Source: a virus. From it: DNA of 64,000 nt. The stretch lies in the IMG/VR virus record IMGVR_UViG_3300042924_004713, positions 1-64,000 of that record, one strand, 5' to 3'. Under the pieces are notes generated by a model, which saw nothing but the letters and a program-made list of their open reading frames with translations, did no database searches and was not told the DNA's origin. The translations under genes and the position numbers were made by a program. Below are positions 14,049 through 36,407 of this stretch, piece after piece (position 1 is the first letter of the stretch; every line of letters starts with the position of its first letter).

Positions 14049-14068
14049 GTATTTTTATACCAAAACTG

Positions 14069-19163: not shown

Positions 19164-22100
19164 ATGCATATCGATGAACTGGAAAATTATAATTTAGCCG
19201 ACGCTGTACGATTTCACGACGAGCTGAATCCTGGACTTTGGGGCAAAGACGAACATCTGCGCCCCGAAGTTCGTGAAGCACTGCTGCGCATTGCAGACGA
19301 TTTTCGTGAATTTCTAGGTGTTAGTGATCTTGAAGTTCAAGACATCACTATTTCTGGCAGCAATGCTGCCTATAATTACACCCCCAACAGTGATATTGAT
19401 CTACATCTAGTGGTCAATATTCCCGAGCTTGACGATGAAGTCTATCGCGAATTATTCAACGCGAAAAAATATCAATACAACGATCAGCACGATATTCGTG
19501 TGCGCGACGCTGATGTTGAACTCTATGTGCAACCAGCCAATGATCCGCATATCAGCCAAGGCATCTATAGCCTAGTAAACAACAAGTGGCTGTCAGTTCC
19601 CCGACGTCAACGAGCCAAGATAGATGACGACAGTGTGCGTCACAAGGCCGAAGATCTAGAAGCTAGAATCAATCAGGCCATTGAATCTGGCGATCGTGAA
19701 ACCATGGATCGCTTGTGGCAAAAGATCAAGGACATGCGCAAAAGCGGACTAGAACAAAAAGGTGAATTCAGTACAGAAAACCTAGTGTTCAAGATGCTGC
19801 GTGTGAACAAATTAATAGAACGTCTGCAAACAGCACGTCAAGCAGCACGTGATCAAGAACTCAGCCTTAGCGAAAGAAAACGCAAGAAGTCTCGTAAACG
19901 CTATGCATATGGTGGTTACTGGTATCCAGGCTACAGCTATTATGGCAGCGGTTCTGAAGGCAGTGACAGTGGTGGCGATGGCGGCGGTGAAAGTGTTCAA
20001 GAAGACGTAGGCTCAACCTGGGATGGAGTGAGTCCTACCACAAGAATGTTCACTAGCGAACAAGAACACACTGAAAACAAAAACGTAATTGGTAAATTTG
20101 CTAGATTTGTGGCACAGCAGATAGGCATGAGCAAGTTGCCACGTATCCGTGTCACACGAGATCCAAAATGGAGTTCCAAAAACGGTACATTTGGACACTA
20201 TGATCAAAATACACAAACACTGACCATTAGTCTGGCCAATCGCCATATCATGGATGTGCTTAGAACCATGGCTCACGAGCTAGTGCATGCACATCAGGAT
20301 CGCGAACATGGCTTGCCTAGCACAGCTGGCAAGACTGGTAGTCCATATGAAAACGAAGCCAATGCGGTGGCGGGTCGTATCATGCGACGTTGGGCCAAGA
20401 AACATGGCAATATGTTTGATCAGCCTGCCACAGAAGACTATGATCCCAATGCCAGACCTCCAGGACCTGAAACCAAACCCACTATGCCAGCTGGCACTGT
20501 GAGAGTTGATGTTAGTGATGTGTATGACTGGTACAAACTAGGACAGCACATCAGTGACCTCGAAGGTCTAGGCAAACATGATTTTGGCAAAGGACCGCCT
20601 AGTGCTATTTTTAGTTTTGGTGACGAAGACACCGAACACAAATATATTAACAATCTGAAGCGCACTGGCCTTGATGTCACGGACATTGATCCACGCGATC
20701 CCAATCAGCCGCCAGGCATGAAGAAAATCAAAACAGATCCAACCTATAATGTTGATGAAGATTGGAAAAGCAGTCTAGGTGCAGCAGCCGCGGCTGCATG
20801 TATTGCAGGCACACCAGGCTGTGCTACCACTAACACAGATAGCAGTCCCACTGCTGATGTGCTAAGAGGTGTACAAACTGTAGGACGTACAGCACAGGCA
20901 GTAAAGGACATGGGCGTGGGTGGCGCCAAAGAAGAACTAATCAATCAACTTCGTGACAAACTGCGCGGTATACGTGAAGCCACTGGTTACATTCCCACAA
21001 AAAAACAAGCTCGTGATCCTAGATTCTCCATGGCCTTGACAAAGGATATTCAGCCAGGCCAGATTGGCAAGGAAGCAAACAAACTAAAGTTAGACACTGA
21101 CAGTCAAGGTCATCCTGCGCTGTTAATGAAACGTCTTAACAATCTGCTGGAATCAGTTAAGACAGACGAACAATTAGACGAAGACGAACTGTTTGAACTC
21201 AAAATGAGTCCCAGCAATCTGGCCAAAATGGCCAAAGACATTGATGCTAGAGCTGGTCTAGAGTTTGAAATGTATGTGCCTAATGTAGACGCCGACGACG
21301 AGGAATTTGAATCCGAGCCGGATTACGGTGCCGACGAATATTTCCCTATGGGTCCAGGCTGGCAGAGTGATGTTATGGATTTCTTCCGTGGTGGAGATAT
21401 GAGCAGTCCTAGAGTTCTTATTCAACGGGCAATTGATGAACTAAATGAAAATTTTTATGAGTGGGTTGGCGAGCAAGAAGAAGAGTTTTTAGCATCCAAC
21501 GAAGGACGAGAACGAGCCATAGAAATCGCTACCAGCAATGTAAGCAGAGACGATTTTGAAACAGACGAAGAATATGAAGCTGCCGTTCGCGAATACCTGA
21601 CAGACAATGAAGACGACATTAGAGATGAATTAATAGACGAATTCCGCGATGATCTTGATAGCAAGTTCGAAGAATGGCTAGACGATCAAGGCATTCGTAT
21701 GATGGCAGATTTTGCGAGCGAATACGGTTTAGAATGGCCATATTGGACCGAGCCAGATGATTACAGCAGAGGCGGAGCAGACATCGACGACGTAGCACGA
21801 GACTTCCAAGATGCTGTTGGACGTCCGGTGAAAACTGGTGGTTATCACAGCGGTGCTTATAGTCAAACCAATAACTATCGTGTGGAAACAGACAGTAGCT
21901 TGAGTGATCCAGACGAACCAGGTGATGCAGGCTTGGAGTTTATCAGTCCGCCCTTGACCATTCCTGAGATGCTGGGAGATATCAAAAAGATCACTGCCTG
22001 GGCTAATCGTGTGGGTGCATATACCAATGACACCACTGGCCTACACATGAATATCAGTGTACCAGGGTACAGCATGCAAAAGCTAGACTATGTAAAGTTG

Positions 22101-23975
22101 GCCATGTTCTTGGGCGACAACTATGTTCTAGAGCAGTTTGGTCGTGCAGGAAATACCTATTGCAAGTCAGCCCTGAATAAAATCAAAGCAGAAGTAAAAC
22201 AAGATCCCGCAAGACTCAAAAACATGCTTCAGGCCATGCAGGGAGAATTAAACAGCATAGCCAGCAAAATTGTTCATACCGGCAACACTGACAAATATAC
22301 CAGCATCAACACCAAGGACAATCGTGTGGAGTTTCGCAGTCCTGGCGGCGATTATCTTGACATATTAGCCAACGATCCTGCACAGATCACAAACACACTG
22401 CTGCGCACAGTGGTAGCTTTGGATGTGGCCATGAAACCTGAAGCGTTCCGTCAAGAGTACATGAAAAAGCTGTACAAGACTCTCACACCAACGGAATTCA
22501 CAGGCGGTCGAGGCGAGCGTCAAACTAGATTGGAATCACAGACCAACGAGGTCGCTGACCTGCTCAGCAAGTACATCGCAGGTGAATTGCCGCAGTCAGC
22601 ACTAAAAAGCTTTATCCAGCAGATTAAGAAAAAGCGTGACGATAAGAAGCAGCCACCAGAAACGCAAACACCTAGTCGTGATCAAGAGTTTTCAGGCACT
22701 TGGGAAATTGTGGCTCGTAATACCGACGAAGTAGTACGCCAATTTAGTGGTGTTGGTAATGCCATAAGAGATGCTGAAGTGTGGGCAAGAAGATGGGCAA
22801 TGGATACCGGATATGATGATCCGTACTATGTGCGCCCTGTAATGCGACCAAGAACCGCGCCACCTGAAACCTCCATTTATCAAATTGTAAACTACCAAGA
22901 CGGTGAAGTGTTAAGTCCGGGACTAAACATGCCTTGGGTTTATGCTCGTGCTCTTGCTGATGATATAGCTCGGCGTCGTGGTATGGGTAGAGCCGACATC
23001 AGAATTGTTGACCTAGAAAACAATCAGACCTATAGTTTTGAAGGTAGACTGATACAGCCAAGTGTGAGAGCCACTGCCGGGGAACCTGTACCAGCTGGTA
23101 GTGTAGGTGGTGGATTCGCTCGAGCACCACATACCAGCATATATCAATTGATTGATAATAGAAATGGTCAAATAATGCTAGGCGGCGAAACAAGAACTTT
23201 TGCTGACACCGTAGAGAAGGCCAATATTTTAATGCGTGACTATAGGCTTACAGCTGATGATATTAGAATTGTTGATATGTATACCAATACTGTATATGAT
23301 ATCAATGGTCGTCCTGTAAGTGGCAACAATGCTAATACTTCTAGCATAGATGGCGAGCAAAGCACAGATGCCAACTACGAAATCATTGATCTTGAAACTC
23401 GTGGACCAGTTTTTAGATTCATTGCCAACACCGATCAAGAAGCACAGAGAAAGTTTATAGATTGGTTGGAAGCAGGTGATCGCTTTATTGGCCAGTATTA
23501 TTGGCGTAGAATTGAAGGTCGTGGCATACCAGGGTCAACAGCAGAACTGCAACGACAGCGATCAGATCAGCAAGTACAAGGTTTTAGAGTCTCTTATACC
23601 GTTACCCATGACGATGAAGTTAGAAATAACACTGTGACTATTCAAGCCCGTAATGCTGACGCTGCAATGGATGTTATGAGAACTAATTTACAACGGGCTG
23701 GATATGAGGTTCTTAGAATTGAAGCTGAACCTGTGGCACAAACTCTAGAGCCACCACCAGAAACAGTAGATATTTCAATGCCCGGTCAGGCTCGCGGAAC
23801 AGAAAGCTTACCACCCGGCAACACTCGCTGGTTGATACTTGATCCAAACGACCGTGAAGTATATAGTTTTGTACATCGTAGTAATCAAGGCGAAGCAAAT
23901 CAATATGCTGTGAACTGGCTAAGACAAAACGGTCTACTAGGCAGTGGCGAATTCATGGTGGTGCCAGCAAGATGA
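19164..23975 (+). CDS. Giant multidomain protein: nucleotidyltransferase + HExxH peptidase + amidoligase + beta-alpha repeats
   Basis: 1603 residues. Seen in order: an MNT-type nucleotidyltransferase (GSNAAYNYTPNSDIDLHLVV at 65-84, third acidic site DADVELYV at 115-122); a Gly/Tyr/Ser-rich linker (about 245-275); a zincin-like peptidase with MAHELVHAHQ (HExxH at 371-375) and a downstream ENEAN; EDWKSSLG followed by an Ala-rich hydrophobic stretch (532-556) that looks like a signal peptide in mid-protein; an amidoligase-2-like domain (about 695-1110: AGLEFEMYV, GLEFISPP, TGLHMNISVPG, NRVEFRSPGGDYLD); and from about 1170 a series of 50-65 residue modules including two clear tandem copies (TSIYQIVNYQDGEV and TSIYQLIDNRNGQI). 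Probably a virion-packaged, ejected protein; that is inference from its neighbours. Confidence 0.85.
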   Translation: MHIDELENYNLADAVRFHDELNPGLWGKDEHLRPEVREALLRIADDFREFLGVSDLEVQDITISGSNAAYNYTPNSDIDLHLVVNIPELDDEVYRELFNAKKYQYNDQHDIRVRDADVELYVQPANDPHISQGIYSLVNNKWLSVPRRQRAKIDDDSVRHKAEDLEARINQAIESGDRETMDRLWQKIKDMRKSGLEQKGEFSTENLVFKMLRVNKLIERLQTARQAARDQELSLSERKRKKSRKRYAYGGYWYPGYSYYGSGSEGSDSGGDGGGESVQEDVGSTWDGVSPTTRMFTSEQEHTENKNVIGKFARFVAQQIGMSKLPRIRVTRDPKWSSKNGTFGHYDQNTQTLTISLANRHIMDVLRTMAHELVHAHQDREHGLPSTAGKTGSPYENEANAVAGRIMRRWAKKHGNMFDQPATEDYDPNARPPGPETKPTMPAGTVRVDVSDVYDWYKLGQHISDLEGLGKHDFGKGPPSAIFSFGDEDTEHKYINNLKRTGLDVTDIDPRDPNQPPGMKKIKTDPTYNVDEDWKSSLGAAAAAACIAGTPGCATTNTDSSPTADVLRGVQTVGRTAQAVKDMGVGGAKEELINQLRDKLRGIREATGYIPTKKQARDPRFSMALTKDIQPGQIGKEANKLKLDTDSQGHPALLMKRLNNLLESVKTDEQLDEDELFELKMSPSNLAKMAKDIDARAGLEFEMYVPNVDADDEEFESEPDYGADEYFPMGPGWQSDVMDFFRGGDMSSPRVLIQRAIDELNENFYEWVGEQEEEFLASNEGRERAIEIATSNVSRDDFETDEEYEAAVREYLTDNEDDIRDELIDEFRDDLDSKFEEWLDDQGIRMMADFASEYGLEWPYWTEPDDYSRGGADIDDVARDFQDAVGRPVKTGGYHSGAYSQTNNYRVETDSSLSDPDEPGDAGLEFISPPLTIPEMLGDIKKITAWANRVGAYTNDTTGLHMNISVPGYSMQKLDYVKLAMFLGDNYVLEQFGRAGNTYCKSALNKIKAEVKQDPARLKNMLQAMQGELNSIASKIVHTGNTDKYTSINTKDNRVEFRSPGGDYLDILANDPAQITNTLLRTVVALDVAMKPEAFRQEYMKKLYKTLTPTEFTGGRGERQTRLESQTNEVADLLSKYIAGELPQSALKSFIQQIKKKRDDKKQPPETQTPSRDQEFSGTWEIVARNTDEVVRQFSGVGNAIRDAEVWARRWAMDTGYDDPYYVRPVMRPRTAPPETSIYQIVNYQDGEVLSPGLNMPWVYARALADDIARRRGMGRADIRIVDLENNQTYSFEGRLIQPSVRATAGEPVPAGSVGGGFARAPHTSIYQLIDNRNGQIMLGGETRTFADTVEKANILMRDYRLTADDIRIVDMYTNTVYDINGRPVSGNNANTSSIDGEQSTDANYEIIDLETRGPVFRFIANTDQEAQRKFIDWLEAGDRFIGQYYWRRIEGRGIPGSTAELQRQRSDQQVQGFRVSYTVTHDDEVRNNTVTIQARNADAAMDVMRTNLQRAGYEVLRIEAEPVAQTLEPPPETVDISMPGQARGTESLPPGNTRWLILDPNDREVYSFVHRSNQGEANQYAVNWLRQNGLLGSGEFMVVPAR

Positions 23976-25549
23976 GAGCCAGCGAGTTTATTGTAGAATC
24001 AAAGATACCTGATGTGGTCTATCACGGCACGGCATCTGCCAACCTCACCAACATAATGAAACACGGTATCAAACCCAAGTTAAATCGTTATGCATACTCC
24101 AATAGACAACACGGTGGCGGAATAGCAACAGGTTTAGAACTAGAGCCAGGTAAACGTAGAAGTGATTTAGAAACTATCAGCACCAGTGTGAACTTTGACA
24201 ACAGTTTAGAGTATGCCAAATTGGGTGGCAGCACAGGTTCAGGCTCTCCTGGCGTGGTACTAGCGTTTCGTCCATTGCCCAGTGATAGCTTTGAAGAAAC
24301 CGGCATGCCTGGTGAAGTTGTATTCCGCAATGCTATCTCTCCAGATAGACTACAAATAGTCTGGCCCCAACGACTAGCGGGCAAAGAAAAACAACTCGCA
24401 CAAAAAGCCGAAAAGAAAAAACAATCAGGTGCTGAAAAAACACAGCAGATCAAAAGCATTAACCAGCAACTCAAAGCCGCAGGTTCTAGTATAAGAATCA
24501 AGTCAACCAACCCTAATACTGCAAGAATTGCCATATGGTTTATGGATCCTGACAACCCTGTACAGGTAGGCAACACCAACATAGATGATCAAAATTTCGC
24601 AGTATTCTTGAAAAAAGAACTAGCTAACCCTGCACCCAACAAACAACGCTATTATGGTAGAACCAATTGGTTAAATGAATTCGCTCCTGAAGGATTTGAG
24701 CAATACAGTTTATACACCGGTGATGGTGTTAGAAATCATTTAGTTGATAAATTTTCGTCATTAAACGCAGCCAAGGAAGAAGTTGAGTTTATATGGGACT
24801 CAGATCCCGAAGCTCGTCTGGCTATATGGTTTATTAAAAATCTAAATGATGAAGTGGTGTGGTCCTATGATCCACAGGAAATAGCGGATGCGCCAAGATA
24901 TCAGTTTAGAAAAAAATCTGATGATCTTGAAGAAATGAATCGTAGAGGATTCCTAGGAGCCATGGGAGCAGGTGCAATGGCTGCTGCGGGAGTTCCCTCA
25001 CAAGCAGCTAACAAGGTGGGACCACCCATGCTCAGTGCCAACATTGGTGCAGAAGAGGCTCTTCATCGTGCGGCTCGTGCTGCTGGCATACGTGGCGTGG
25101 AACTTGCGCAGTTTCTAGCACAGTGTTATCATGAGTCTGGCGGCTTTAAATACATGCAAGAACTAGGTGATCCACGTTATTTTCTACGATACGATCCTAG
25201 AGTAGATCCTGCCAAGGCACGTGTGCTAGGTAATGTAAAGCCAGGAGATGGTGAACGCTACAAGGGTCGTGGATTTATACAGATCACTGGCAGAGATAAC
25301 TATCGTAGAGCCGGTGAAGCTCTGGGTCTGCCCTTGGAAGACCGGCCAGAACTCGCAGCTAGAATGGATGTGGCAGCACGTATTGCAGTATGGTATTGGA
25401 AACAAAGAGTCAAGCCCAATGTGTCTAATTTCAATGACACTCGTGCGGTGACTCGGCAAATCAATCCCAACATGCGCGGTCTTGAAGATCGACATGAAAA
25501 TTTCAAAGACTATAAAAAGGTCTTTAGTATGAATTGGAAAGCTGTATGA
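23972..25549 (+). CDS. CTS-tagged ADP-ribosyltransferase-like / GH19 hydrolase fusion
   Basis: 525 residues. The N-terminus MRASEFIVES resembles the T4 capsid-targeting leader (cut after Glu). Residues about 12-130 contain DVVYHGTASANLTNIMKHGI and GDELEPGKRR-like followed by ISTSVNFDN, the layout of ADP-ribosyltransferase or RNA 2'-phosphotransferase folds. Residues 130-320 hold two related beta modules. At 322 MNRRGFLGAMGAGAMAAAG looks like a twin-arginine signal peptide, then VPSQAAN and a GH19 domain (QCYHESGGFKYM with catalytic Glu; YKGRGFIQITGRDNY). The internal ATG at 24935 could also start a separate 204-residue exported hydrolase. Overlaps both neighbours by 4 bases. Confidence 0.82.
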   Translation: MRASEFIVESKIPDVVYHGTASANLTNIMKHGIKPKLNRYAYSNRQHGGGIATGLELEPGKRRSDLETISTSVNFDNSLEYAKLGGSTGSGSPGVVLAFRPLPSDSFEETGMPGEVVFRNAISPDRLQIVWPQRLAGKEKQLAQKAEKKKQSGAEKTQQIKSINQQLKAAGSSIRIKSTNPNTARIAIWFMDPDNPVQVGNTNIDDQNFAVFLKKELANPAPNKQRYYGRTNWLNEFAPEGFEQYSLYTGDGVRNHLVDKFSSLNAAKEEVEFIWDSDPEARLAIWFIKNLNDEVVWSYDPQEIADAPRYQFRKKSDDLEEMNRRGFLGAMGAGAMAAAGVPSQAANKVGPPMLSANIGAEEALHRAARAAGIRGVELAQFLAQCYHESGGFKYMQELGDPRYFLRYDPRVDPAKARVLGNVKPGDGERYKGRGFIQITGRDNYRRAGEALGLPLEDRPELAARMDVAARIAVWYWKQRVKPNVSNFNDTRAVTRQINPNMRGLEDRHENFKDYKKVFSMNWKAV

Positions 25550-26274
25550 AAATCACAGAATTTGTCACGGAAGACTGGCAAAAGACCAATCGCAAGGACA
25601 AGACCTCGGGCATGAGCCGCAAGGCAGTTAAACAATACCGCCGTGAAAATCCCGGCAGTAAACTGCAAACCGCTGTGACCACCAAGCCCAGCAAGTTGAA
25701 AAAAGGTTCTAAGAGCGCCAAGCGTCGCAAGAGCTTTTGTGCTAGAATGCGTGGCATGAAGAAATCACGCACTTCAGCCAAAACAGCTAGAAATCCCAAT
25801 TCAAATATTAATAAAGCACTGCGCCGTTGGAACTGCGAAAGCATTGAGCAAATGCAAGAGCTGGTAATGATTGCCGAGCAAAAGATCGCTGCGTTGCGGC
25901 AAGGTGTGGCGGAAGATCAAGAAGATATCGTAGCCGTCATTGATGGTGTACGTTCGGATAGAACTTACAACGATAGATATCACGCACACAATTCTTTATC
26001 AAAACTAGTGGGATATGGCAAAGCCAAGGTAGCAGAATTGTATATTAACGGCGAAAAAGTAGAACACTTTGAACTAGGAAAAAAATATATTGATTTTGAA
26101 CCCAAGAGTCTAGGTTCAATGTCAGAGGCAGGTCCATTCTCATACGGTGCCAAGAAGCCTAGAAAAGGTAGTGTGGCAGATCTTGCTGCAAAGAAACGCC
26201 AAGAACAGGAAAAAGGCAAGCTGCCTGCGGAACCTAAAGACCATATGGTTGGCACAGCACGGATAATCAAATAA
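25546..26274 (+). CDS. CTS-tagged basic protein with conserved phage Cys motif
   Basis: 242 residues, start ATG at 25546 overlapping the previous stop. MKITEFVTE-DW resembles the T4 capsid-targeting leader. Residues 10-110 are strongly basic and carry motifs common in marine phage proteins: SGMSRKAVKQYRRENPG, KKGSKSAKRRKSFCARMRG, SAKTARNPNSNINKALRRWN then Cys. The second half (about 130-242) holds a small domain (HNSLSKLVGYGKAKVAELYI) and a basic tail. The first part looks nucleic-acid binding. Function unknown; likely packaged. Confidence 0.8.
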   Translation: MKITEFVTEDWQKTNRKDKTSGMSRKAVKQYRRENPGSKLQTAVTTKPSKLKKGSKSAKRRKSFCARMRGMKKSRTSAKTARNPNSNINKALRRWNCESIEQMQELVMIAEQKIAALRQGVAEDQEDIVAVIDGVRSDRTYNDRYHAHNSLSKLVGYGKAKVAELYINGEKVEHFELGKKYIDFEPKSLGSMSEAGPFSYGAKKPRKGSVADLAAKKRQEQEKGKLPAEPKDHMVGTARIIK

Positions 26275-26275
26275 A

Positions 26276-26812
26276 ATGAGAGCACAAGAATTTTTAAAAG
26301 AAGAAACAGGCAATGAGCAAGATTTAGAATCTCTCAAGGAAGCCTGCGAAAACTGGATGGAAATGTATTTTGATGCTAATGACATCAATACAATTTTAAC
26401 ACATCCTTATAGTCAACAATTCAAGCAACCACCAGCCGGTATAGAAAAACTTTATCGTGGACTGGTAGTTGCCGGTGGAAAAGTAAAGGCGGTGCCCGGT
26501 AAAAGCAATAGAAAGTTTGTGGCCTATGCCACACACCCCTACGGTGCTGAAGCATTCTTGGCCAGTCTTGATGTTGGCGGTCGTAAAGTAATCATTGAAA
26601 AACAGTTTAACCCCGCTGACTTTGTGTTAGACTTCACAGGCCTGTATGAAAGTTTGTTTCCTGATCAAGGTCTTCACAATCGGTATGAAACTGAATACGA
26701 AGTTTGGATGCGAGCCACAAGATACTATCAGTCAGCGTCAGAGCAAGAAATAATTAAAGACACTGCCTGGGGTCAGACCGACGACGGTGAACCAGGTAGA
26801 GGAAATCTCTAA
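26276..26812 (+). CDS. CTS-tagged ADP-ribosyltransferase-like protein
   Basis: 178 residues. Leader MRAQEFLKEETGN. The body has the R-S-E order of Arg-specific ADP-ribosyltransferases: KLYRGLVVAGG (Arg), RKFVAYATHPYGAEAF (the STS-like strand, here YAT) and YETEYEVWMRAT (ExE-type pair of Glu). T4 packs ADP-ribosyltransferase Alt in its head and injects it to modify host RNA polymerase, so this could be an analogue. The motifs are degenerate and the fold call is by eye. Start codon 1 base after the previous stop; overlaps the next gene by 1 base. Confidence 0.68.
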   Translation: MRAQEFLKEETGNEQDLESLKEACENWMEMYFDANDINTILTHPYSQQFKQPPAGIEKLYRGLVVAGGKVKAVPGKSNRKFVAYATHPYGAEAFLASLDVGGRKVIIEKQFNPADFVLDFTGLYESLFPDQGLHNRYETEYEVWMRATRYYQSASEQEIIKDTAWGQTDDGEPGRGNL

Positions 26813-27357
26813 TGAGAGCTTCTGAGTTTATCGCAGAAGGTGTGTCAGTGAGAGATCAGATCCTAGCTGATGTTAAAAAACACGGCGGTGATACCGATGA
26901 TTACTTTGTAAGATACACCAGTGTTGATAAACTAGGCTTCAGCGCACGTCAATGGTTTTCTAGAACCCCCGATGTGGATCATCCAAAATTTCACGTGGAC
27001 TTTATAGGACACGATGTGGGTCGATTGGCACTTTGGTTTTATCCCTTGAAAACTGCCATGGACACCAGTAGAACTCTGTATGGCAGTGAACAACCCTATG
27101 TATGGTTGGTCAAGCTCCGTCCTGATGCTTGGCTACAGACTGTCAAGCGTGGCGACAACACAGTTGAGCCGCCACCTCCAGGCAAACAAAGAGTGGGAAT
27201 ACTGCGCATGAGTCAACCTCCTGCTGCTATCTTTTTCCGGCCCGCATTTGATGTGATTGGTAGATATTATGATTATGCCTCTAGACACAAAAGACATGGT
27301 GAAGTCAAAGGGCCTCCCCCGCCCACACTGTTCCAAAGAATTCGGGGTGAACGATGA
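26812..27357 (+). CDS. CTS-tagged protein, possible ADP-ribosyltransferase-like fold
   Basis: 181 residues. The leader MRASEFIAEG is the closest match in the window to the T4 internal-protein leader (MKTYQEFIAEA), with an IAE|G cleavage-type site. The body contains DDYFVRYTSVDKLGFSARQ, then a Phe-rich beta region, SRTLYGSEQPYVWLVKLRPD and a Pro/Arg-rich C-terminus. The YVRYTS-type start and the late YVWLVKL strand fit an ADP-ribosyltransferase-type barrel weakly. An unrelated beta protein is possible. Confidence 0.65.
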   Translation: MRASEFIAEGVSVRDQILADVKKHGGDTDDYFVRYTSVDKLGFSARQWFSRTPDVDHPKFHVDFIGHDVGRLALWFYPLKTAMDTSRTLYGSEQPYVWLVKLRPDAWLQTVKRGDNTVEPPPPGKQRVGILRMSQPPAAIFFRPAFDVIGRYYDYASRHKRHGEVKGPPPPTLFQRIRGER

Positions 27358-27377
27358 AAACATTTAGGAACTAGACC

Positions 27378-28475
27378 ATGCGCTTACACGAAATTCAACA
27401 ACAGCGTAGACCGCATCTTTTTCTTGACATGGATGGTGTTCAAGCAGACTTCTTTTCAGCCTGGGCACGCTTGTTTGGCAAAGAACGCTACAAAGAAATA
27501 GGCAATCGCGCACAACGCGAAGCCACTATCGCAGATCTCAATGCACGTGGTCCTGAATTTGTAGAAGAATTCTTTACAAACTTGCCTGTGTTGCCTGGTG
27601 CGCAGACTCTAATTAAGTTTCTACGTGACAATGATATCAAGTACACAATTCTAAGTGCGCCGCTGCGTGGCAACGAAGCTGCTAGTATCCGCGGAAAGTT
27701 GGCATGGTTAGATCGCCATCATCCTGGCACATCTGCCACTGCGATCTTCACAGGCGAAAAACAACGCTATGCCACTACCAATGGTGAACCAAATGTGCTA
27801 GTTGATGACTTCAAGAAATATGTGAATGCCTGGACCGCAGATGGTGGCATTGCTGTGCTGTATCGTTGGAATAATGTTGGCGCTGCAATTGAACAGTTGA
27901 AAAAGATCTATGGATTAGAGCCAGGTGCTCAGGTCAACAGTCTTGATGCATTACAAGAGGCAGTGGTAGGCACGCTGTATCCTAAAAAAATACTAGGCAC
28001 TGCTAGAGTAGGTGACTTGTCTATTCCTATACACCGTCATCTATATGATCAAGCGCAGAGCCGTGGAATTGATCTAAAAACCATAGAACGCACACTGCGT
28101 AGACTGCCCAGAATAGCCAGCAAACTCAAAAAAATTGAAGCAGGAAACAAGGTATGGGTTTACAACCCTCACGATGAAATTAGTCTAGGCTTTTTTGCAC
28201 TGGACAGTGGTGGATATTTGTTGAACACAGTGATTCCCAATGCGCCACATCAACAGGGAGTTACTGATGTGATACGCATGTATGAAGCAGACATTGAAGA
28301 AAATTTTGCAGACGGTAAAGTCAAGGGCCGGAGCCGGCCTGGGCGTGTAAAACGTGCGGGTGCCAGTTGTGATGGCAGTGTAACCAGTTTAAGAGCCAAG
28401 GCCAAAAAATACAGCGGCGAACGAGGTCGAATGTACCATTGGTGTGCAAACATGAAATCAGGACGTCAAAAATGA
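27378..28475 (+). CDS. HAD-family phosphatase-like fusion with phage C-terminal module
   Basis: 365 residues. Residues 10-185 are a HAD phosphatase related to 5'(3')-deoxyribonucleotidases: FLDMDGVQADFFSAW (nucleophile DxD), a TILSAP strand, a Lys in GEKQRYAT and NVLVDDFKKYV with the acidic pair. Residues about 200-310 form a second domain (RVGDLSIPIHRHLYDQAQ ... GLKTVI-like), possibly toxin- or nuclease-like. The C-terminus has GASCDGSVTSLRAKAKKYSG then RGRMYHWCANMKSGR, a conserved two-Cys module. Leader MRLHEIQQQ is only weakly like the MRAxEF type. Could degrade or dephosphorylate nucleotides after injection. Confidence 0.78.
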   Translation: MRLHEIQQQRRPHLFLDMDGVQADFFSAWARLFGKERYKEIGNRAQREATIADLNARGPEFVEEFFTNLPVLPGAQTLIKFLRDNDIKYTILSAPLRGNEAASIRGKLAWLDRHHPGTSATAIFTGEKQRYATTNGEPNVLVDDFKKYVNAWTADGGIAVLYRWNNVGAAIEQLKKIYGLEPGAQVNSLDALQEAVVGTLYPKKILGTARVGDLSIPIHRHLYDQAQSRGIDLKTIERTLRRLPRIASKLKKIEAGNKVWVYNPHDEISLGFFALDSGGYLLNTVIPNAPHQQGVTDVIRMYEADIEENFADGKVKGRSRPGRVKRAGASCDGSVTSLRAKAKKYSGERGRMYHWCANMKSGRQK

Positions 28476-28894
28476 GAGACCTACTTAATATACTAGAAGC
28501 AGTGAGCCGCGGCTGTCCTCCTGCAACACAAGACATTGATCTTAATCTAAAGAATCGTCAGAAGGCCATAGAAGAATATCATTATGGCCCGCTGAATCCC
28601 AATGAACCCAATGAAGAATACTGGGCTGAACTAGCCGACAAATGGAATACCAGTGATATTGAATCTGTAAAACAGAATCGCTGTGGCAACTGTGCTGCAT
28701 TTGACATCTCAGAAAAAATGCTGGACTGCATTGCCACTGGTATTGGTGCAGAACCCGGATCAGATCCACATGATACCATAGATGCTGGTCAGCTAGGCTA
28801 CTGTAAGTTTTTGAAATTCAAATGTGCTGCCAAGCGTACCTGCGATGCCTGGGTAGAGGGTGGTCCTGTGACAGGAGAAAAAAATGAGAGCTAA
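28472..28894 (+). CDS. CTS-like leader plus HiPIP-like four-Cys module
   Basis: 140 residues, start ATG at 28472 overlapping the previous stop. Leader MRDLLNILE-AVSRG has an ILE|A prohead-protease-type site. The C-terminal half has four spaced Cys: RCGNCAAFDISEK, GQLGYCKFLKFKC and AKRTCDAWVEGG. The order CxxC ... GxC ... CxAW matches high-potential iron-sulfur proteins, which hold one 4Fe-4S cluster; an extra Cys lies between. A zinc knuckle is the alternative. Function in a phage unknown. Confidence 0.7.
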   Translation: MRDLLNILEAVSRGCPPATQDIDLNLKNRQKAIEEYHYGPLNPNEPNEEYWAELADKWNTSDIESVKQNRCGNCAAFDISEKMLDCIATGIGAEPGSDPHDTIDAGQLGYCKFLKFKCAAKRTCDAWVEGGPVTGEKNES

Positions 28895-29258
28895 AGAATT
28901 TGTAAAAAAGTCCGCCACTGAAGCTGAAATGCCCTGGAAGGATGCAGTGGATGCAGGTGCCATGACCACACAACAGGGTGCCAAAATAGCTGCCAGTGAT
29001 ATTTCTCAAGCCATTGGTGATTTGGAAAAAAATCAAGCTGCCATTGGTAAAGAAATTGCCACACAAAGAGCTGCTGCCAATTCAGTGCCCTCCAACGTAC
29101 AAGTGACCAGCATGAAGCCAGATGGCAGTTGGACCGGACGTGAGCTACCCAAAACTACTAAAATTGGTCCTATTTCAATTACACGAGGCAGCGGTAATCC
29201 TGTAGCCGGCGGTGCAGTGAAAAAAGCACCACCTGCCTATCCCCCAGGCGCCATCTAA
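28884..29258 (+). CDS. CTS-tagged small protein of unknown function
   Basis: 124 residues. Leader MRAKEFVKKSATEAEM matches the MRAxEF family of starts. The middle is a helical, Ala/Gln-rich stretch (about 25-75) that may be a coiled coil, and the C-terminus is Pro/Gly-rich. The gene overlaps the previous one by 11 bases and ends the tightly coupled string that began at 19164. Role unknown; a packaged internal protein is likely from its leader. Confidence 0.7.
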   Translation: MRAKEFVKKSATEAEMPWKDAVDAGAMTTQQGAKIAASDISQAIGDLEKNQAAIGKEIATQRAAANSVPSNVQVTSMKPDGSWTGRELPKTTKIGPISITRGSGNPVAGGAVKKAPPAYPPGAI

Positions 29259-29292
29259 AAATACACCTGCTGATTTCAGGCCACTAAGTACC

Positions 29293-29311
29293 AGGCGAAA
29301 ATTCGCTTTTT
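29293..29311 (+). terminator. Weak Rho-independent terminator candidate
   Basis: AGGCGA-AAAT-TCGCTT followed by TTT. The stem is six pairs including one G-T. It ends the cargo operon and precedes TATAGGAG, the ribosome binding site of the next gene. Confidence 0.4.
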
Positions 29312-29323
29312 ATAGGAGACTTT

Positions 29324-30262: not shown

Positions 30263-30264
30263 AT

Positions 30265-30516
30265 GTGGCCCAGATACGTTGGTGCTGGCGTTGGTACGAT
30301 GGACATACCGCAGTAGCTAGAAACAGTCTGCGTAGGTCCCGTATACTAAACCAGTTACGCCGTATACATAGACAACACCCCGCTTTGAAATTCACAGTCA
30401 AACGCGGGGAGTTTTTTATAGAAGCATGGTTTGTGGATACAAATGATCTGCTGATATTTGCTTTGATATGGCCACCAACTTGTCCTGTGTGGGAGAAATT
30501 TGATGATATTTCCTGA
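30265..30516 (+). CDS. Small basic protein of unknown function
   Basis: 83 residues from a GTG start 2 bases after the previous stop. The first half is Arg-rich (NSLRRSRILNQLRRIHRQHP), the second has a FTVKRGEFFIEAWFVD strand pair. No family recognised. The frame is bounded by real genes, and it overlaps the next by 14 bases, which supports coding use, but the GTG start and lack of a clear ribosome binding site leave doubt. Confidence 0.55.
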   Translation: MAQIRWCWRWYDGHTAVARNSLRRSRILNQLRRIHRQHPALKFTVKRGEFFIEAWFVDTNDLLIFALIWPPTCPVWEKFDDIS

Positions 30517-30787
30517 TATGCCTAAACGTCAACACTGGTGGGATCAACACACTGAACCTGTGTCGCCAGTTGCAGTTGAAACCCACACTGTGGTTGTGCC
30601 AGAACTCACGGCTGTCAGCGCCGAAGAATGGTTTGCCAAACATTTTCCAGACACAGTGCCCACAGCTTTGCCCAGTCACCGTGAGCCTTTTGACTGGCGT
30701 AAAGATCCACGGGGCACAGCAGAATTTGCTGCGCTGTGTGGGTTCTTGATAGCATGGGTAGCCTACTGGTATCAAGTATCTCACTAA
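30503..30787 (+). CDS. Small protein with C-terminal hydrophobic segment
   Basis: 94 residues. ATG at 30503 with GGGAG 8 bases upstream. The middle is Pro/Val/Thr-rich, followed by SAEEWFAKHFPD and a C-terminal hydrophobic helix (FAALCGFLIAWVAYWYQV, about residues 74-91), suggesting a tail-anchored membrane protein. Function unknown. Confidence 0.65.
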   Translation: MIFPDMPKRQHWWDQHTEPVSPVAVETHTVVVPELTAVSAEEWFAKHFPDTVPTALPSHREPFDWRKDPRGTAEFAALCGFLIAWVAYWYQVSH

Positions 30788-30790
30788 ATA
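30784..30790 (+). promoter_or_regulatory. Late-type box (CTAAATA) at a gene junction
   Basis: CTAAATA overlaps the preceding stop codon and ends 4 bases before the ATG at 30795, too close for a normal leader. Confidence 0.25.
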
Positions 30791-30794
30791 ATTG

Positions 30795-31010
30795 ATGCGC
30801 TTGAATGAACTATTTGAAAACTTGGTACAAAACTATGATCTATACCAAGCTCAGGTGAAAATACAGCAGCCTGGTTATCTAGGACGTATCAACGTCACGG
30901 TGAGTGCGCCCAGCGCCGCTGCGGCACGAGCACTGATCAAAGCACAGTATAATGTAAAAACACATGATATTGGCCAAGTTCGTCGCATGCCCGCAGGAAA
31001 GAAACTATAA
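30795..31010 (+). CDS. Small single-module protein related to the giant protein's repeats
   Basis: 71 residues. After MRLNELFENLVQN (a leader with LFE|N, like the MRAxEF group) comes one beta-alpha-beta unit: YLGRINVTVSAPSAAAARAL, then a helix and DIGQVRRM. The pattern (strand, A-rich helix, strand) matches the repeated modules at the C-terminus of the 1603-residue protein. Probably a stand-alone copy of that module. Confidence 0.65.
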   Translation: MRLNELFENLVQNYDLYQAQVKIQQPGYLGRINVTVSAPSAAAARALIKAQYNVKTHDIGQVRRMPAGKKL

Positions 31011-31432
31011 TGCGTGCTAGAGAGTTTGTTCCAAGAGCCTGGTATGTAACAGTAAACGGTGATCCTGGCATTCTCACAAGAAACACCACACCTGGTGAAC
31101 AGCCCTGGAGAGTCACTTGGTTTGATAGAGAAGATCATGAACCCAATGGTCACACGGACATCAGCAAACTACAAGCCCGTCAGATTCAACGCGGTAACAA
31201 CATAGAAGTTGTAGATCAAGACATAATTTACTATATAGATGCCGGTGAAGAACTTGCGGAAAACAGTTTGTTCTGGCGCCAATATCCTTGTACCAAAGAC
31301 TGTTCAGGTCACCAAGCAGGTGATTCCTGGGCACAGGCACGCGGTATCACAGATGTAACACAATGCCCTCCTGGCAACAGCAACAGCTGGTGGGAAGGCT
31401 GCAAAAGCGAAGCCGAAAAACGTCCTTATTAA
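31010..31432 (+). CDS. MRAREF-leader protein with conserved phage Cys module
   Basis: 140 residues; the ATG shares one base with the previous stop. Leader MRAREFVPRAW. Residues 12-75 form a small beta domain (WYVTVNGDPGILTR, IEVVDQDIIYYI). The C-terminus has YPCTKDCSGHQAGDSWAQA, then QCPPGNSNSWWEGC, four Cys and a His in a pattern I associate with several marine phage proteins and which could bind a metal. Function unknown. Confidence 0.72.
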   Translation: MRAREFVPRAWYVTVNGDPGILTRNTTPGEQPWRVTWFDREDHEPNGHTDISKLQARQIQRGNNIEVVDQDIIYYIDAGEELAENSLFWRQYPCTKDCSGHQAGDSWAQARGITDVTQCPPGNSNSWWEGCKSEAEKRPY

Positions 31433-31435
31433 GCT

Positions 31436-33334
31436 ATGAAACAAAATGTGTATCTTTATGCTCCTAACTTTGAGTCAGGACATGGAAATGTAACGTCGGT
31501 GTGGCTACCCTATACAGTGGGCTGTATCTGGAGTTACGCCATGACCGATCAAAGGCTACGAGATAACTTTAATTTGTGTGGTCTTGGGTTCCTGCGTGAT
31601 CCAGTTGATCAAGTGGTTGATAGTCTTGACAACCCAGCGGTGTGTGGATTTAGTACCTATATCTGGAACGAAAACTACAACCTTGCTCTCAGTAAGGCTA
31701 TCAAGCAAAGGTATCCCAATTGCTTGATCTTGTTTGGTGGTCCTAATGTGCCCAATGAAGAAGAAGTTCTGCGACAGTGGCGCAAGGATCATGCCTGGAT
31801 TGATGTATCCATTAGATACGAGGGAGAAATTGCGTTTAAAAATGTGTTGCATGATATTCTTGACAACAAGGTCAAAAGAGACTATGTGGCACATAGAGTA
31901 GAAGATCTTGAAGTGCCTAGTCCTTATCTAACCGGACTGTTTGACGACATTGTCAAAGACAAACAATTCATGTACTCCATGACCATTGAGACCAATCGTG
32001 GTTGTCCATTTCCCTGTACCTTTTGCGACTGGGGTAGTTTGACCTATGCCAAGATCAAGAAATTTCCCTTGGAAAAAGTTTTTGCAGAAATAGAGTGGTC
32101 AGGACGTAACCAAATTGAGTTTATTAGTCTAGCTGATGCTAACTTTGGCGTGTTTCCTGAGCGTGATCAAGCCATTGCCGAATGTTTTATTGAAACCAAG
32201 AAAAAATATGGGTATCCACAGCAGATCAGTTGTACATGGTACAAAAACTCCAATGAAGTAATTTTAAACATAGCCGAGGATCTTACACGTCATGGCCTAA
32301 ACCGTGGACTCACACTAAGTGTACAAAGCATGCACGAGCCCACGCTCACTGCTATCAAACGCAAGAACATGAAGATCAATGATCAGAGTCTGCTGTTTCA
32401 AGAATGCAATCGTAGACACATACCTTTTTATACCGAGCTGATTCTAGGCATGCCCGAAGAAACACTGGCCAGCTGGCGTCAAGGCCATTTGGATCTAATT
32501 GAAATGGGCCAGCATGGTTGTGTGTACATGGCTCCCATTGAGCTGCTGCGCAACGCAGAAATGACCAAACAGATTGATCAGTACAAGATCAAAAGCACAG
32601 TGATATCTGACTATTGGACCTGTGCTCGCAGCGGTATCAGCGAGTGCCAACACATAGCCACGGAAACCAATACCATGTCCACTGATGACATGATAGATGC
32701 TACTATTTTTTCCTGGATGATAATTTCATTTCATCATCACGGCTGGACAGAGCTATATTCAAGATATCTACACAAGCGTGGCTGGAGCTACAAACAGATC
32801 TACGATAATCTTGAAACATGGTTAATGAGCCACCCTTACTACAGCCAACAAATAGCAAAGTTTAGAAGCACAGTGAGTGATTTTTACCATCACAGTAGAA
32901 GCATTGAATACTATGCTCTCTGGGAAGGCGTAAAAAACATGTATGTGGATAGACAACAACATCTTGACAACATAGCAGCATGGTTTCAAACTCTTTGTCA
33001 AGATGACTGCTGCGATGAAATAATTGAACTACAAAGGCATTGGATAATTGATCCATATGGAACCAGTAAGAACACAGTGGAACTGCCCAGTAACTTGATC
33101 TATTGGATATTAGATCTAGAACCCGTGGTAACCAAATCCCCCATACAGTGTGAATTTTCCACTAGCCAAACCGAGTCATGGGCTAACCTAGAGGAGTTCC
33201 TGAGTTTTGTTGTGCTACGCAGAAAAGAAAGTTTTGGCAAAGCCATTGTTAATATTTTGCCGCAACAAACACCAGCTGATTTTGAACTAAATATGGAATG
33301 TCCAATGACATTGTCAAACTTGTCTGTAAGCTAG
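31436..33334 (+). CDS. B12-binding-type radical SAM protein
   Basis: 632 residues. The N-terminal 140 residues look like a cobalamin-binding (Rossmann) domain: VYLYAPNFESGHGN, CLILFGGPNVPNEEE. The radical SAM core has NRGCPFPCTFCDWG (CX3CX2C, Cys 190, 194 and 197), then EFISLADANFGVFPERD and the LILGMPEETLASW strand. The C-terminal 200 residues are helical and specific. Such enzymes methylate or rearrange unactivated carbon; the substrate is not known. The DxHxxG cobalamin motif is not evident, so B12 binding is uncertain. Overlaps the next gene by 37 bases. Confidence 0.85.
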   Translation: MKQNVYLYAPNFESGHGNVTSVWLPYTVGCIWSYAMTDQRLRDNFNLCGLGFLRDPVDQVVDSLDNPAVCGFSTYIWNENYNLALSKAIKQRYPNCLILFGGPNVPNEEEVLRQWRKDHAWIDVSIRYEGEIAFKNVLHDILDNKVKRDYVAHRVEDLEVPSPYLTGLFDDIVKDKQFMYSMTIETNRGCPFPCTFCDWGSLTYAKIKKFPLEKVFAEIEWSGRNQIEFISLADANFGVFPERDQAIAECFIETKKKYGYPQQISCTWYKNSNEVILNIAEDLTRHGLNRGLTLSVQSMHEPTLTAIKRKNMKINDQSLLFQECNRRHIPFYTELILGMPEETLASWRQGHLDLIEMGQHGCVYMAPIELLRNAEMTKQIDQYKIKSTVISDYWTCARSGISECQHIATETNTMSTDDMIDATIFSWMIISFHHHGWTELYSRYLHKRGWSYKQIYDNLETWLMSHPYYSQQIAKFRSTVSDFYHHSRSIEYYALWEGVKNMYVDRQQHLDNIAAWFQTLCQDDCCDEIIELQRHWIIDPYGTSKNTVELPSNLIYWILDLEPVVTKSPIQCEFSTSQTESWANLEEFLSFVVLRRKESFGKAIVNILPQQTPADFELNMECPMTLSNLSVS

Positions 33335-33585
33335 ATTGCCGCTGGGAAGGGCTTGCCCCAACCTATCGCGCCTGGGTCAACAATGAGCTGTTTACCGAAC
33401 GCACTTGGATTTGGACTGAAAACTATATTGAAGAAATATTTCAAGTCAAGGCCATACCCGGAAAATACCGTATTAGATTTGAGTTGGTACAGCCCTGTCT
33501 AGCGGACTTGATTTTTCTAGAAATGCGAGCATTGCACGGTCCAGTGCGTGTAAAAAGTGGTGGCATATTTTTGATTGATTCTTAA
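33298..33585 (+). CDS. Small beta-sandwich-like protein
   Basis: 95 residues starting inside the 3' end of the radical SAM gene. Strand-rich (RAWVNNELFTERTWIW, YRIRFELVQP, LIFLEMRALHGPVRV). The layout is that of small carbohydrate-binding or decoration domains. Catalytic residues are not visible. It may bind a glycan or be an accessory part of the radical SAM protein given the long overlap. Confidence 0.65.
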   Translation: MSNDIVKLVCKLDCRWEGLAPTYRAWVNNELFTERTWIWTENYIEEIFQVKAIPGKYRIRFELVQPCLADLIFLEMRALHGPVRVKSGGIFLIDS

Positions 33586-33586
33586 C

Positions 33587-33763
33587 ATGAGAGCAAGAGA
33601 ATTCATAGGCGAAGATGTATCAACTACCAGCGCCAGTATTGCCCCGGTTGCACAGAGCCTGGGACACATGCCAATGATCAGTCGCATGGGCCGAGTGCCT
33701 ACTGTGCATAAATATCAGACTAGAAAACCTAAACGGACTAAAAATGCTGGCAGAATCGCTTAA
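33587..33763 (+). CDS. Very small MRAREF-leader peptide
   Basis: 58 residues. Leader MRAREFIGEDVS fits the capsid-targeting-like family (IGE|D). The rest is Ser/Ala-rich and then basic (KYQTRKPKRTKN). The 3' part overlaps the Dps-like gene by 20 bases and contains a late box for it. No ribosome binding site is obvious, but the start one base after the previous stop supports coupling. Likely a packaged basic peptide like T4 internal proteins. Confidence 0.6.
   Translation: MRAREFIGEDVSTTSASIAPVAQSLGHMPMISRMGRVPTVHKYQTRKPKRTKNAGRIA
33708..33714 (+). promoter_or_regulatory. T4-type late promoter box (ATAAATA) before the Dps-like gene
   Basis: GCATAAATATC lies 29 bases before the ATG at 33744, the spacing usual for T4 late promoters. 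Confidence 0.5.
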
Positions 33764-34187
33764 AACTATATTGGCTTCAAGCTACGCTTATGTGATCAAA
33801 GCGCAGTTTTTTCATTGGAACGTAGAAGGGCCTGACTTTGCTCAACTGCATGATTTCTTTGGCAAGATCTACGAAGAAGTCTATGACAATTCCATTGATC
33901 GCTGTGCTGAATTCATCAGAGTACTTGATGACTACGCTCCGGGTAGTTTTGAACGATTCGCGGAACTGTCTATTATATCTGGACAAATCAAAGTACCTCG
34001 TGCTCGACTCATGCTGGAAGAACTATTACAAGATACAAATAATATGTTGGCATTGTTAAACACTGCGTTTCAAGAAGCAGATGCAGATCAACAGCAAGGT
34101 ATTGCTGACTTTCTGGCCGAACGAATTGACGCCATGGGCAAACATCGTTGGATGTTGAGATCGTTTCTCAAGGAAGCACGAGCATGA
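33744..34187 (+). CDS. Dps-like ferritin-fold protein
   Basis: 147 residues. The Dps signature is clear: AQFFHWNVEGPDFAQLHDFF, followed by YDNSIDRCAEFIR carrying the ferroxidase Asp and Glu, all on the expected helices. Dps dodecamers oxidise iron with peroxide and protect DNA. Length fits the family, without a long basic N-tail. It lies between two MRAxEF-type or related cargo genes, so packaging in the head is possible. The start follows a late box and the ATGA overlap couples it to the next gene. Confidence 0.88.
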   Translation: MLAESLKTILASSYAYVIKAQFFHWNVEGPDFAQLHDFFGKIYEEVYDNSIDRCAEFIRVLDDYAPGSFERFAELSIISGQIKVPRARLMLEELLQDTNNMLALLNTAFQEADADQQQGIADFLAERIDAMGKHRWMLRSFLKEARA

Positions 34188-35065
34188 ACGATATCTACAC
34201 CATCCTAGCCAGACTGGAAGCCATACAAGAAGGCAGTACCACGCCAACTAAACTGTCAAAAGATCTCAACCCGCAACAAAAAGCAGTGCCTCAATTGCCT
34301 GCTCTGTTCAAGCCTAATAAGATTTCAGTTCTGGGTGCCAAAACTGATCCAGATCATCCCATGCGTGGTTACGCAGTGGGTGCAAGTGAAAGTGCTGAAA
34401 CCGAAGTAGAAGAAGACTGGCGCAGTGCCGCAGCAGCAGGTGCATTGGCCGCTGCTAACCTTCTGGGTACACCGGCTCAAGCAACAGAACCTGTGAAACC
34501 AATCACAGTAGCGCATGTGACCATAGATGGTGAAACACGCACATACAATCTTGGTGATAGATTTAAAAGTTCCAAAGAAGCAGAAAAGTTTATCAGCGAT
34601 GTACTAGATCGTCAAGGGCTGTCAGGTTACAGTCTTGACATCAAGACCGGCGTGCCAAAGAACACAGACAGCACAGCAATGAAAGAACAAATAATCGCAG
34701 CCGAAGACATGCTGGGCAAAATACGTCGTGACTTAGCAGATTACCTCCGCAGCGTAGAAGATGAACTAGTGGGACGAGATAGATCACTGATACGCAAGGC
34801 CAAGCAAGAACTCGCCAAACCTGACATTGAAAAGTTTCTACCAGTCAAAGTTATCAGCACCGACGATGGTAAAGAACTCAGAATACATGGCAACGAAGAC
34901 GATGGATTTAGAATCAGTGTGCATGAAAAAATGCTACCCACTGCATTTGAAAGCCTTGAAGAAGCCAGCATGGCCTGCGAAATGTACTGTGCTCGTAGGC
35001 GTGGCCAGCCCATGGAAGCCAATCCAGACTACGTGGATGAGCGCGACAGCACAGCAAAGCATTAG
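34184..35065 (+). CDS. Probable packaged protein with internal signal-peptide-like segment
   Basis: 293 residues, ATGA overlap with the Dps-like gene. The N-terminus MNDIYTILARLEAIQE-GS has an IQE|G prohead-protease-type site, then LNPQQKAVPQLPALFKPN, a linker motif I associate with phage head proteins. At residues 76-100 EEDWRSAAAAGALAAANLLG then TPAQAT looks like a signal peptide in mid-protein, as in the 1603- and 525-residue proteins. The rest has a small beta unit (HVTIDGETRTYNLGDRF), a helical region, and an EDDGFRISVHEKM module with two Cys near the C-terminus. Function unknown. Confidence 0.75.
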   Translation: MNDIYTILARLEAIQEGSTTPTKLSKDLNPQQKAVPQLPALFKPNKISVLGAKTDPDHPMRGYAVGASESAETEVEEDWRSAAAAGALAAANLLGTPAQATEPVKPITVAHVTIDGETRTYNLGDRFKSSKEAEKFISDVLDRQGLSGYSLDIKTGVPKNTDSTAMKEQIIAAEDMLGKIRRDLADYLRSVEDELVGRDRSLIRKAKQELAKPDIEKFLPVKVISTDDGKELRIHGNEDDGFRISVHEKMLPTAFESLEEASMACEMYCARRRGQPMEANPDYVDERDSTAKH

Positions 35066-36149: not shown

Positions 36150-36407
36150 ATGAACCGAACATTCAGTGCAGAACAAAAAGCCAAACTCACGCAATTGATC
36201 AACGAAGGCATGCAGGTCATGCACGAAGTTGAAACACTCAATGGTGGTTTGAGCGACACTATCAAGGCAGTTGCAGAAGAATTGGAAATCAAACCCAATG
36301 TTTTGAAAAAAGCCATTAGACTCGCTCACAAAGCTGAATTTGGCAAAGAACAGCAGGATCATGCACTACTAGAAGAGATTCTTACCACAGTAGGCAAGAC
36401 TTTGTGA
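36150..36407 (+). CDS. dsbA: DsbA-like small DNA-binding protein (T4 late transcription accessory)
   Basis: 85 residues, helical and charged: INEGMQVMHEVETLNGGLSD, then VAEELEIKPNVLKKAIRLAH, a probable helix-turn-helix, and a C-terminal helix (EEILTTVGKTL). Layout and size match the T4-type DsbA family, a double-stranded DNA-binding protein that binds near late promoters. This fits the late boxes seen in the window. Strong ribosome binding site (TAGGAGG). GTGA overlap with the next gene. Confidence 0.75.
   Translation: MNRTFSAEQKAKLTQLINEGMQVMHEVETLNGGLSDTIKAVAEELEIKPNVLKKAIRLAHKAEFGKEQQDHALLEEILTTVGKTL

Follow-up and report, generated by a model that had tools for sequence, protein, structure and literature searches.

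Why should a run of neighbouring phage genes with different bodies begin with the same few residues? The question is raised by a 64,000-nucleotide stretch of DNA (the window; positions 1 to 64,000 of the 166,408-bp IMG/VR virus record IMGVR_UViG_3300042924_004713), where a shared N-terminus, here called the leader, has the form M[RK][AI]xEF. A preliminary description of the window compared this leader with that of the T4 internal head proteins (IPs) and proposed that the block, then set at 19164-35065, encodes proteins packed in the head and injected with the DNA. T4 ipII and ipIII start MKTYQEFIAEA. The first 10 residues of T4 IPIII suffice for head targeting, gp21 cuts at L/I-X-E, and Alt and the IPs are ejected into the cell (PMC9026906). 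The reading favoured here, with a probability of about 0.82, is that the block encodes leader-targeted head cargo that is cut in the prohead and injected, some of it being exported to the periplasm.

A Leader Common to Different Proteins

The strict form M[RK][AI]xEF is found at seven of the 78 possible ATG starts of the block at 23.9-33.8 kb, where 0.0024 are expected by composition. Among the 1,738 possible ATG starts of the whole record (open reading frames, ORFs, of more than 40 residues), no instance lies outside the block. All seven genes, which are named here by their first position and like the other leader and module genes lie on the plus strand, start where the preliminary description had placed them, with ATG translation verified for each. 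A gp21-type L/I/V-x-E site ends five of the seven leaders: MRASEFIVE↓S (23972; the arrow marks the predicted cut), MKITEFVTE↓D (25546), MRAQEFLKE↓E (26276), MRASEFIAE↓G (26812) and MRAREFIGE↓D (33587). MRAKEFVKK (28884; VKKS) and MRAREFVPR (31010; VPRA) lack the Glu, and these products would be targeted but uncut at the leader. Four "weaker" leader forms had also been listed; three of them carry a site (MRDLLNILE↓A at 28472, LFE↓N at 30795 and AIQE↓G at 34184) and the fourth, MRLHEIQQQR at 27378, does not. Leader codons vary within the block (GCC, GCA, GCT; GAG, GAA; TTT, TTC), so what is conserved is the peptide rather than a repeated DNA sequence.

T4-type capsid targeting with gp21-like cutting, the core of the earlier proposal, is supported by the head genes of the record. 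A T4-type prohead protease (Peptidase_S77, E 4e-27) at 161.2-161.8 kb of the record is followed by an ORF that from its position would be the gp22-like scaffold, and by the gp23 capsid protein (Gp23, E 2e-100). This protease shares 50-57% identity with its counterparts in jumbo phages such as Phosso, PA5oct, SCTP-2 and 121Q, and ~70% with those in uncultured relatives that are 260-350 kb long; the record is therefore probably a fragment of a jumbo phage. Large records that carry leaders, or the joint described below, encode S77 in 15 of 20 cases. The remaining five look like fragments minus the head module, because gp23 is absent from them as well. No DNA nearly identical to the window was found in the annotated phage collection, no tandem repeats in the block, and no PADLOC match to anti-phage defence families.

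Leaders in Related Phages

Homologues of the 26812 protein were found in 24 IMG/VR loci, those of 34184 in 29 loci and those of 25546 in 476 stretches. The 26812 family keeps the leader or cut site in nearly all of its 24 loci, and where it is fused behind other proteins it still keeps VEE↓AK, IVE↓AK or FE↓AK. No homologue of it was found in the annotated phage collection or, by a search without a positive control, in eight cultured phages. The neighbourhoods of these families put the leader on other bodies, for example in a run of leader genes in locus L012.

All fetched IMG/VR loci together hold 135 distinct M[RK]AxEF starts with unrelated bodies, and body content behind the leaders varies between phages. 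Glu9, the gp21 cut position, is present in 102 of them, and residue 7 is hydrophobic in 114. Control patterns with one letter changed gave 0-3 matches each, except the conservative M[RK]AxDF with 10. The Ala codons are diverse (GCA 79, GCT 30, GCC 30, GCG 1). The idea that relatives would carry MRAxEF starts on different bodies is strongly borne out. The preliminary description, which knew of no phage with so many enzymes in one such block, caught the phenomenon but underestimated its size: relatives own comparable sets of leader genes, and the module junctions, the DNA joint and the hidden signals described below were beyond its view. Its ART (ADP-ribosyltransferase) assignments, and its proposal of injection and host action, are weaker than it put them. 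In Atu_ph07, Motura and Mx1, the exact leader cluster was sought and only scattered, near-background counts were seen.

Leader Proteins in Purified Virions

Published mass spectrometry (MS) of other phages supports the view that leader-type N-termini mark virion proteins. The motif ^M[KR].{3,4}[FIL][ILVM].E, drawn from T4 and the window, matches four of the 219 proteins of the cyanophage S-CREM2: the S-adenosylmethionine (SAM) hydrolase gp6, gp13, the kinase gp14 and the cytidylyltransferase gp154. Virions purified on CsCl yielded 52 detected proteins, and these include all four (PMC10665884), with a Fisher p of 0.003, or 0.0004 for non-structural proteins only; some S-CREM2 N-termini had been seen beforehand, and the test was not blind. 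The text of the S-CREM2 paper (PMC10665884) makes no mention of the leader. In PA5oct, the window-type core M[RK][AILV]x[ED][FILM] fits seven annotated starts, of which six are MS-detected (p 0.0004; background 93 of 445, counted from the record's feature tables). Packaging of leader proteins in the head is well supported in this way, if indirectly for the window phage.

Two further proteins in S-CREM2 virions are homologous to proteins of the block, yet have no leader. These are gp156, related to residues 11-235 of the 19164 protein (38%, E 3e-42), and gp208, related to the GH19 part of 23972. The virion-detected, Cas9-like gp12 of S-CREM2 (OR473000.1, 7704-10313) has LRFASFMAE↓A a few residues in, which suggests a packaged nuclease.

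Predicted Cut Sites at Module Junctions

Three modules of the window are found again in two settings: immediately after leaders, and within or at the C-terminus of unrelated proteins. In relatives, the residue that precedes the DUF6321 module (P1) is Glu in 57 of 57 distinct contexts, a count that pools two register forms, E↓DW and [LIVM]xE↓GE[NT]W. For the KWSEKYK module P1 is Glu in 37/37 contexts and P3, two residues before it, is hydrophobic (L, I, V, M or F) in 36/37; for the NFADGK module the values are 25/25 and 22/25. The background of [LIVMF]xE in the same proteins is 2%, and P2 and P4 are variable at the junctions.

In the window, the basic DUF6321 module (25573..25836, PF19846 E 5e-11) directly follows the leader MKITEFVTE↓ (25546..25572), and NFADGKVKG.. 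(28302..28472) follows a predicted cut at DIEE↓. Relatives' junctions also point to a cut at YLEE↓K before the module KWSEKYKRSINC.. (17960..18121) of the 17066 gene. The original limits of the block were therefore too narrow, as the module system extends back to this gene.

A Coding Recombination Joint

Many module junctions of the relatives share a 20-bp DNA repeat, AGCAAGGTGTGGCGGAAGGC, which encodes QGVAE↓G. At least 120 stretches carry the 17-mer of this joint; among the matches listed there are 182 distinct contexts, with one reading frame throughout, and conservation that stops sharply at -2 and +17. Since measurement on exact matches favours the joint's own conservation, it was repeated on loci fetched by protein search only. 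There CAA GGT GTG GCG makes up 88% of 57 distinct contexts (0.9% expected by codon usage), and QGVAEG is seen 83 times, compared with 0.05 for the average permutation of its letters. With up to two mismatches allowed, all 17 records tested, among them that of the window, contain the joint, and none contains the reversed pattern. No joint was found in six cultured jumbo phages, and no mention of QGVAEG in the literature searched.

Modules change partners at the joint. Among 216 joints with both flanks, pairs are homologous on the left only in 82 cases, on the right only in 98 and on both sides in 7. In 39 close pairs the DNA identity is ~0.8-1.0 in one flank but at the random level in the other, and the break falls 0-4 nt past the joint. 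In loci L155-L274 and others, AGCAAGGTGTGGCGGAAGGC stands at module boundaries and near-identical modules change partners exactly there. In L254, one upstream module precedes two different downstream modules within a single locus, which suggests exchange inside one genome. The window has a single, diverged copy, CAAGGTGTGGCGGAAGAT (QGVAE↓D; 25900..25917, 16/18 bases matching), between the DUF6321 module and the next module.

Serine (PF00239) and tyrosine (PF00589) recombinases were found in 0/17 records, unlike integron or shufflon cassettes. As no site-specific recombinase was found, the modules appear to recombine via short homology at the joint. In bacterial genomes the joint gave 3 hits in 257 billion bases, near chance. 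Since the joint would be both breakpoint and cut site, a new fusion would bring its own cut site. We are aware of no description of a viral recombination joint encoding its own processing site.

Hidden Signal Peptides

Signal peptides that function in twin-arginine (Tat) or Sec export do so only at the N-terminus, and in these phages candidates are found inside proteins. Internal Tat motifs of the form [STND]RRxF[LM]..G (ORFs of at least 200 residues) have [LIVMF]xE in the six residues before them in 10 of 10 cases; the figure for random positions is 9.5%. Examples are QGVAE↓DLSRRGFLKG.. and MRATEFVTE↓MDRRGFLRG... The cut motif likewise precedes Sec-like segments, E↓[GD]W[KR]..hydrophobic..AxA. 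Three such candidates occur in the window: LEE↓MNRRGFLGAMGAGAMAAAGVPSQA before the GH19 domain of 23972 (24932..25012, ends approximate; Tat-like, Pfam TAT_signal E 0.019), VEE↓DWRSAAAAGALAAANLLGTPAQA in 34184 (34415..34492, end approximate; Sec-like) and VDE↓DWKSSLGAAAAAACIAGTPGCA in 19164 (20760..20852, end approximate). The requirement for an N-terminal position provides an independent argument for cutting there and for action in the host cell. Internal start codons were rejected as an explanation of these internal signals, as the boundary carries no Met in most cases. We know of no described signal peptide that is unmasked by a capsid protease.

Proposed Mechanism

The 9-residue leader, which corresponds to the capsid targeting sequence of T4, would take each protein into the prohead core. 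There a gp21-type protease would cut after [LIVM]-x-E, removing the leader and separating fused modules at their junctions; the conserved sites suggest that this also happens in the window phage. The mature proteins would then exit with the DNA and may act on the new host, injection being suggested by the enzyme bodies and hidden export signals. The cargo would include a GH19 wall hydrolase, a 5'-nucleotidase/HAD enzyme, nucleotidyltransferases, basic Cys-rich modules and proteins that weakly resemble ADP-ribosyltransferases (ARTs). Some cuts would yield a Tat or Sec signal as the new N-terminus, and such modules are probably sent on to the periplasm once inside the host. The arsenal would evolve through module swaps at junctions, the joint serving as breakpoint and cut site in relatives. 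We lean, with less confidence, towards a fuller version: a self-renewing capsid-delivered effector system in which the 20-bp recombination joint is also the protease site and maturation unmasks Tat/Sec signals for the periplasm.

Several observations weigh against this. Glu is absent from two of the seven strict leaders (28884 and 31010) and from 27378, and ART assignments are weak throughout. DUF6321 is also found in small T7-like pelagiphages and cyanopodophages, where a T4-type protease is not expected, and so the module alone is no proof of packaging. The core motif used for PA5oct differs slightly from the T4-type motif used for S-CREM2; two of the three PA5oct proteins that fit the T4-type motif are MS-detected. 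The window-type core fits none of the MS-detected S-CREM2 proteins, from which it follows that lineages differ in their leader consensus. CsCl-purified virions can also carry contaminants, as the authors of the S-CREM2 study caution.

Alternative Explanations

The alternative that survives best, an unlikely one, accepts packaging and cutting but makes the products structural or scaffold-like core proteins rather than injected effectors. Deletion of T4 IPIII slows head assembly (PMC9026906), and several modules of the block are small and basic. A structural role does not account for the enzyme bodies of the window (GH19, NT5C, NMNAT-like, nucleotidyltransferase), nor for hidden Tat/Sec signals that are meaningful only inside a host cell, and the bodies differ from phage to phage. 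The 55 joint-bearing polyproteins of relatives also contain GNATs, cytidine deaminase and the SutA RNA polymerase-binding domain, with DUF6321, GP88, LysM, ParB_N, NT5C and GH19 among their other domains.

Slightly less probable still is conservation of the joint as DNA (a binding site, packaging signal or RNA element), with the coding of QGVAEG incidental. The rare codon GCG is fixed in 56/57 joints against a background of 0.11, and the other cut sites and the leaders, unlike the joint, share no codons. Against this, all 182 contexts among the matches listed are in one frame inside long ORFs; the joint also falls between domains, forms a V-A-E↓G site of its own and coincides with the breakpoint at which partners switch.

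There is little to recommend the leader as a tail or baseplate signal, by which the proteins would be tail-associated like other phage lysozymes. S-CREM2 gp208, the GH19 match of 23972, does sit among baseplate genes, but it has no leader, the leader itself resembles the T4 head targeting sequence, and the cut motif belongs to the head protease. Mere descent from one duplicated gene, with no targeting role, would suit adjacent genes on the same strand and is scarcely credible when, in many phages, unrelated bodies retain M[RK]AxEF[IVL]xE despite drifting codons, and when the leader predicts detection in virions.

Comparison with Known Systems

Head cargo of this kind has its closest parallel in T4 IPI-III and Alt, with which it shares a short leader (MKTYQEFIAE↓A compared with MRAxEFIxE↓), the L/I-X-E cut, and a T4-type protease, scaffold and capsid protein; like Alt, an injected enzyme, the block has enzyme bodies. 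Unlike the T4 IPs, the leader has 9 residues rather than 10, about ten genes lie in one block, the bodies are mostly unrelated to IPs, and some modules are fused, with predicted cut sites inside the fusions and signal peptides hidden there.

Polyvalent proteins of phages and conjugative elements are multidomain proteins predicted to be co-injected with DNA, and proteolytic processing has been proposed for them (Iyer et al. 2017, PMC5512222). The block resembles them in its mix of candidate effector domains. Their processing is ascribed to zincin or assemblin-like peptidase domains of their own (PMC5512222), whereas here a T4-type prohead protease would act on a short leader and on repeated joints, many cargo genes are single-domain, and a joint in coding DNA marks module boundaries. 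The phiKZ-like giant phages (SPN3US, phiKZ) also have a large injected load and a gp21-like protease, but theirs are mostly ~100-residue propeptides with an S/A-X-E cut and no common 9-residue leader (PMC5694885). The T4-like cyanophages S-CREM2 and S-SCSM1 likewise have virion-associated enzymes (an NMNAT-like enzyme, a kinase, a SAM hydrolase). Four S-CREM2 proteins bear a T4-type leader; these leaders differ from those of the window in reading MKxFxSFLTE, and no QGVAEG joint was seen there.

Leader-based head packaging (T4) and multidomain injected proteins (polyvalent proteins) are thus already known. What appears to be new is how many leader genes there are, the polyprotein logic based on the prohead protease, the joint in coding DNA and the signals concealed behind cut sites. 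Proteins injected ahead of gene expression are poorly catalogued, since the cargo is diverse and anonymous. With leader, cut motif and DNA joint, the cargo list of uncultured jumbo phages and T4-like cyanophages could be read from sequence, giving a list of proteins that are candidates for early host takeover or anti-defence roles, and a natural protein-delivery code. The system may also be an example of evolution preserving processing sites during domain shuffling. The published virion proteomes of cultured S-CREM2 and PA5oct make the idea immediately testable.

Genes of the Block

Domain content in the window includes GH19, NT5C/HAD, NMNAT-like, nucleotidyltransferase-like and DUF6321. Domains are mixed in single polypeptides in 19164 and 23972, where some calls are weak; most genes of the block are single-domain. 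The gene at 17066..18124 encodes an NMNAT/cytidylyltransferase-like enzyme (PF01467, E 8e-7) with a C-terminal basic Cys module; cyanophage virions have repeatedly yielded NMNAT-like proteins (PMC9602691). The 1603-residue protein of 19164..23975 has a nucleotidyltransferase-like N-domain (NTP_transf_2, 0.0036), several predicted cut sites, a region related to an Atu_ph07 protein, and by eye a HELVH metallopeptidase-like stretch, for which there is no Pfam peptidase match. The sequence KTDPxYNV[DE]E upstream of its hidden signal recurs in L018 and L141, there before other modules.

Earlier assignments of the GH19 and HAD domains stand; those of ARTs are weak. The 23972..25549 protein consists of the leader (23972..23998), a KptA/PARP-like stretch (KptA-like E 0.0035, short of the cut-off), the Tat-like signal and a GH19 peptidoglycan hydrolase domain (25088..25429; PF00182 E 4e-10, phrog_181 endolysin E 6e-44). 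In 25546..26274, leader, DUF6321 and joint are followed by the module AGPFSYGAKKPRKGSV. The body of 26276..26812 is unassigned, with R-S-E ART-like motifs by eye only and no significant profile or fold match; its one homologue, in L107, has the leader MRANEFVTE. The 181-residue protein of 26812..27357 (AF2 pLDDT 83) has a weakly ART-like fold. Its structural hits are nearly all ARTs (PARP), with E >= 0.14 and TM <0.35, and an ART fold is not claimed.

The Glu-less, leader-like start at 27378..28475 precedes an NT5C/HAD phosphatase-like domain (PF06941, E 3e-8) and the NFADGK module. The Cys-cluster module behind the variant leader of 28472..28894 recurs in 16 contexts, behind either MRNxINLLE↓ leaders or VAE↓/TNE↓ junctions. 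The body of 28884..29258 is of unassigned kind and has no homologue among the fetched loci. A small protein (30795..31010) starts MRLNELFE↓N, and in 31010..31432 a CTKDCSGHxAG module follows ELAE↓N. The 34184..35065 protein has the N-terminus ..LEAIQE↓G, the Sec-like signal and a conserved C-terminal module.

The leader of 33587..33763 is followed by a 49-residue body, from a small family shared with six other loci. In the window and in L134, L137 and L147 this family continues E↓NASAGATSSGSVA.., resembling the capsid protein past its likely cut, which is LKE↓NATAGSTAAGN in the window phage and LVE↓NASAGATQAGN in PA5oct. A Dps/ferritin-like protein without a leader (33744-34187, PF00210 E 9e-18) lies between leader genes, and its homologues give 65 hits, spread over many of the same loci; it is possibly a packaged DNA-protection protein. 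Radical SAM proteins occur at 31436-33334 and 36404-37450, two of them confirmed by Pfam, and more radical-SAM-like ORFs were noted by eye at 103-112 kb of the record, a number unusual for a phage. A phage DnaJ and a ClpA/ClpB-like ATPase (Pfam) lie within 13269-16385 of the window, and GroES/GroEL-like ORFs were noted by eye at 79484-81403 of the record (79.5-81.4 kb).

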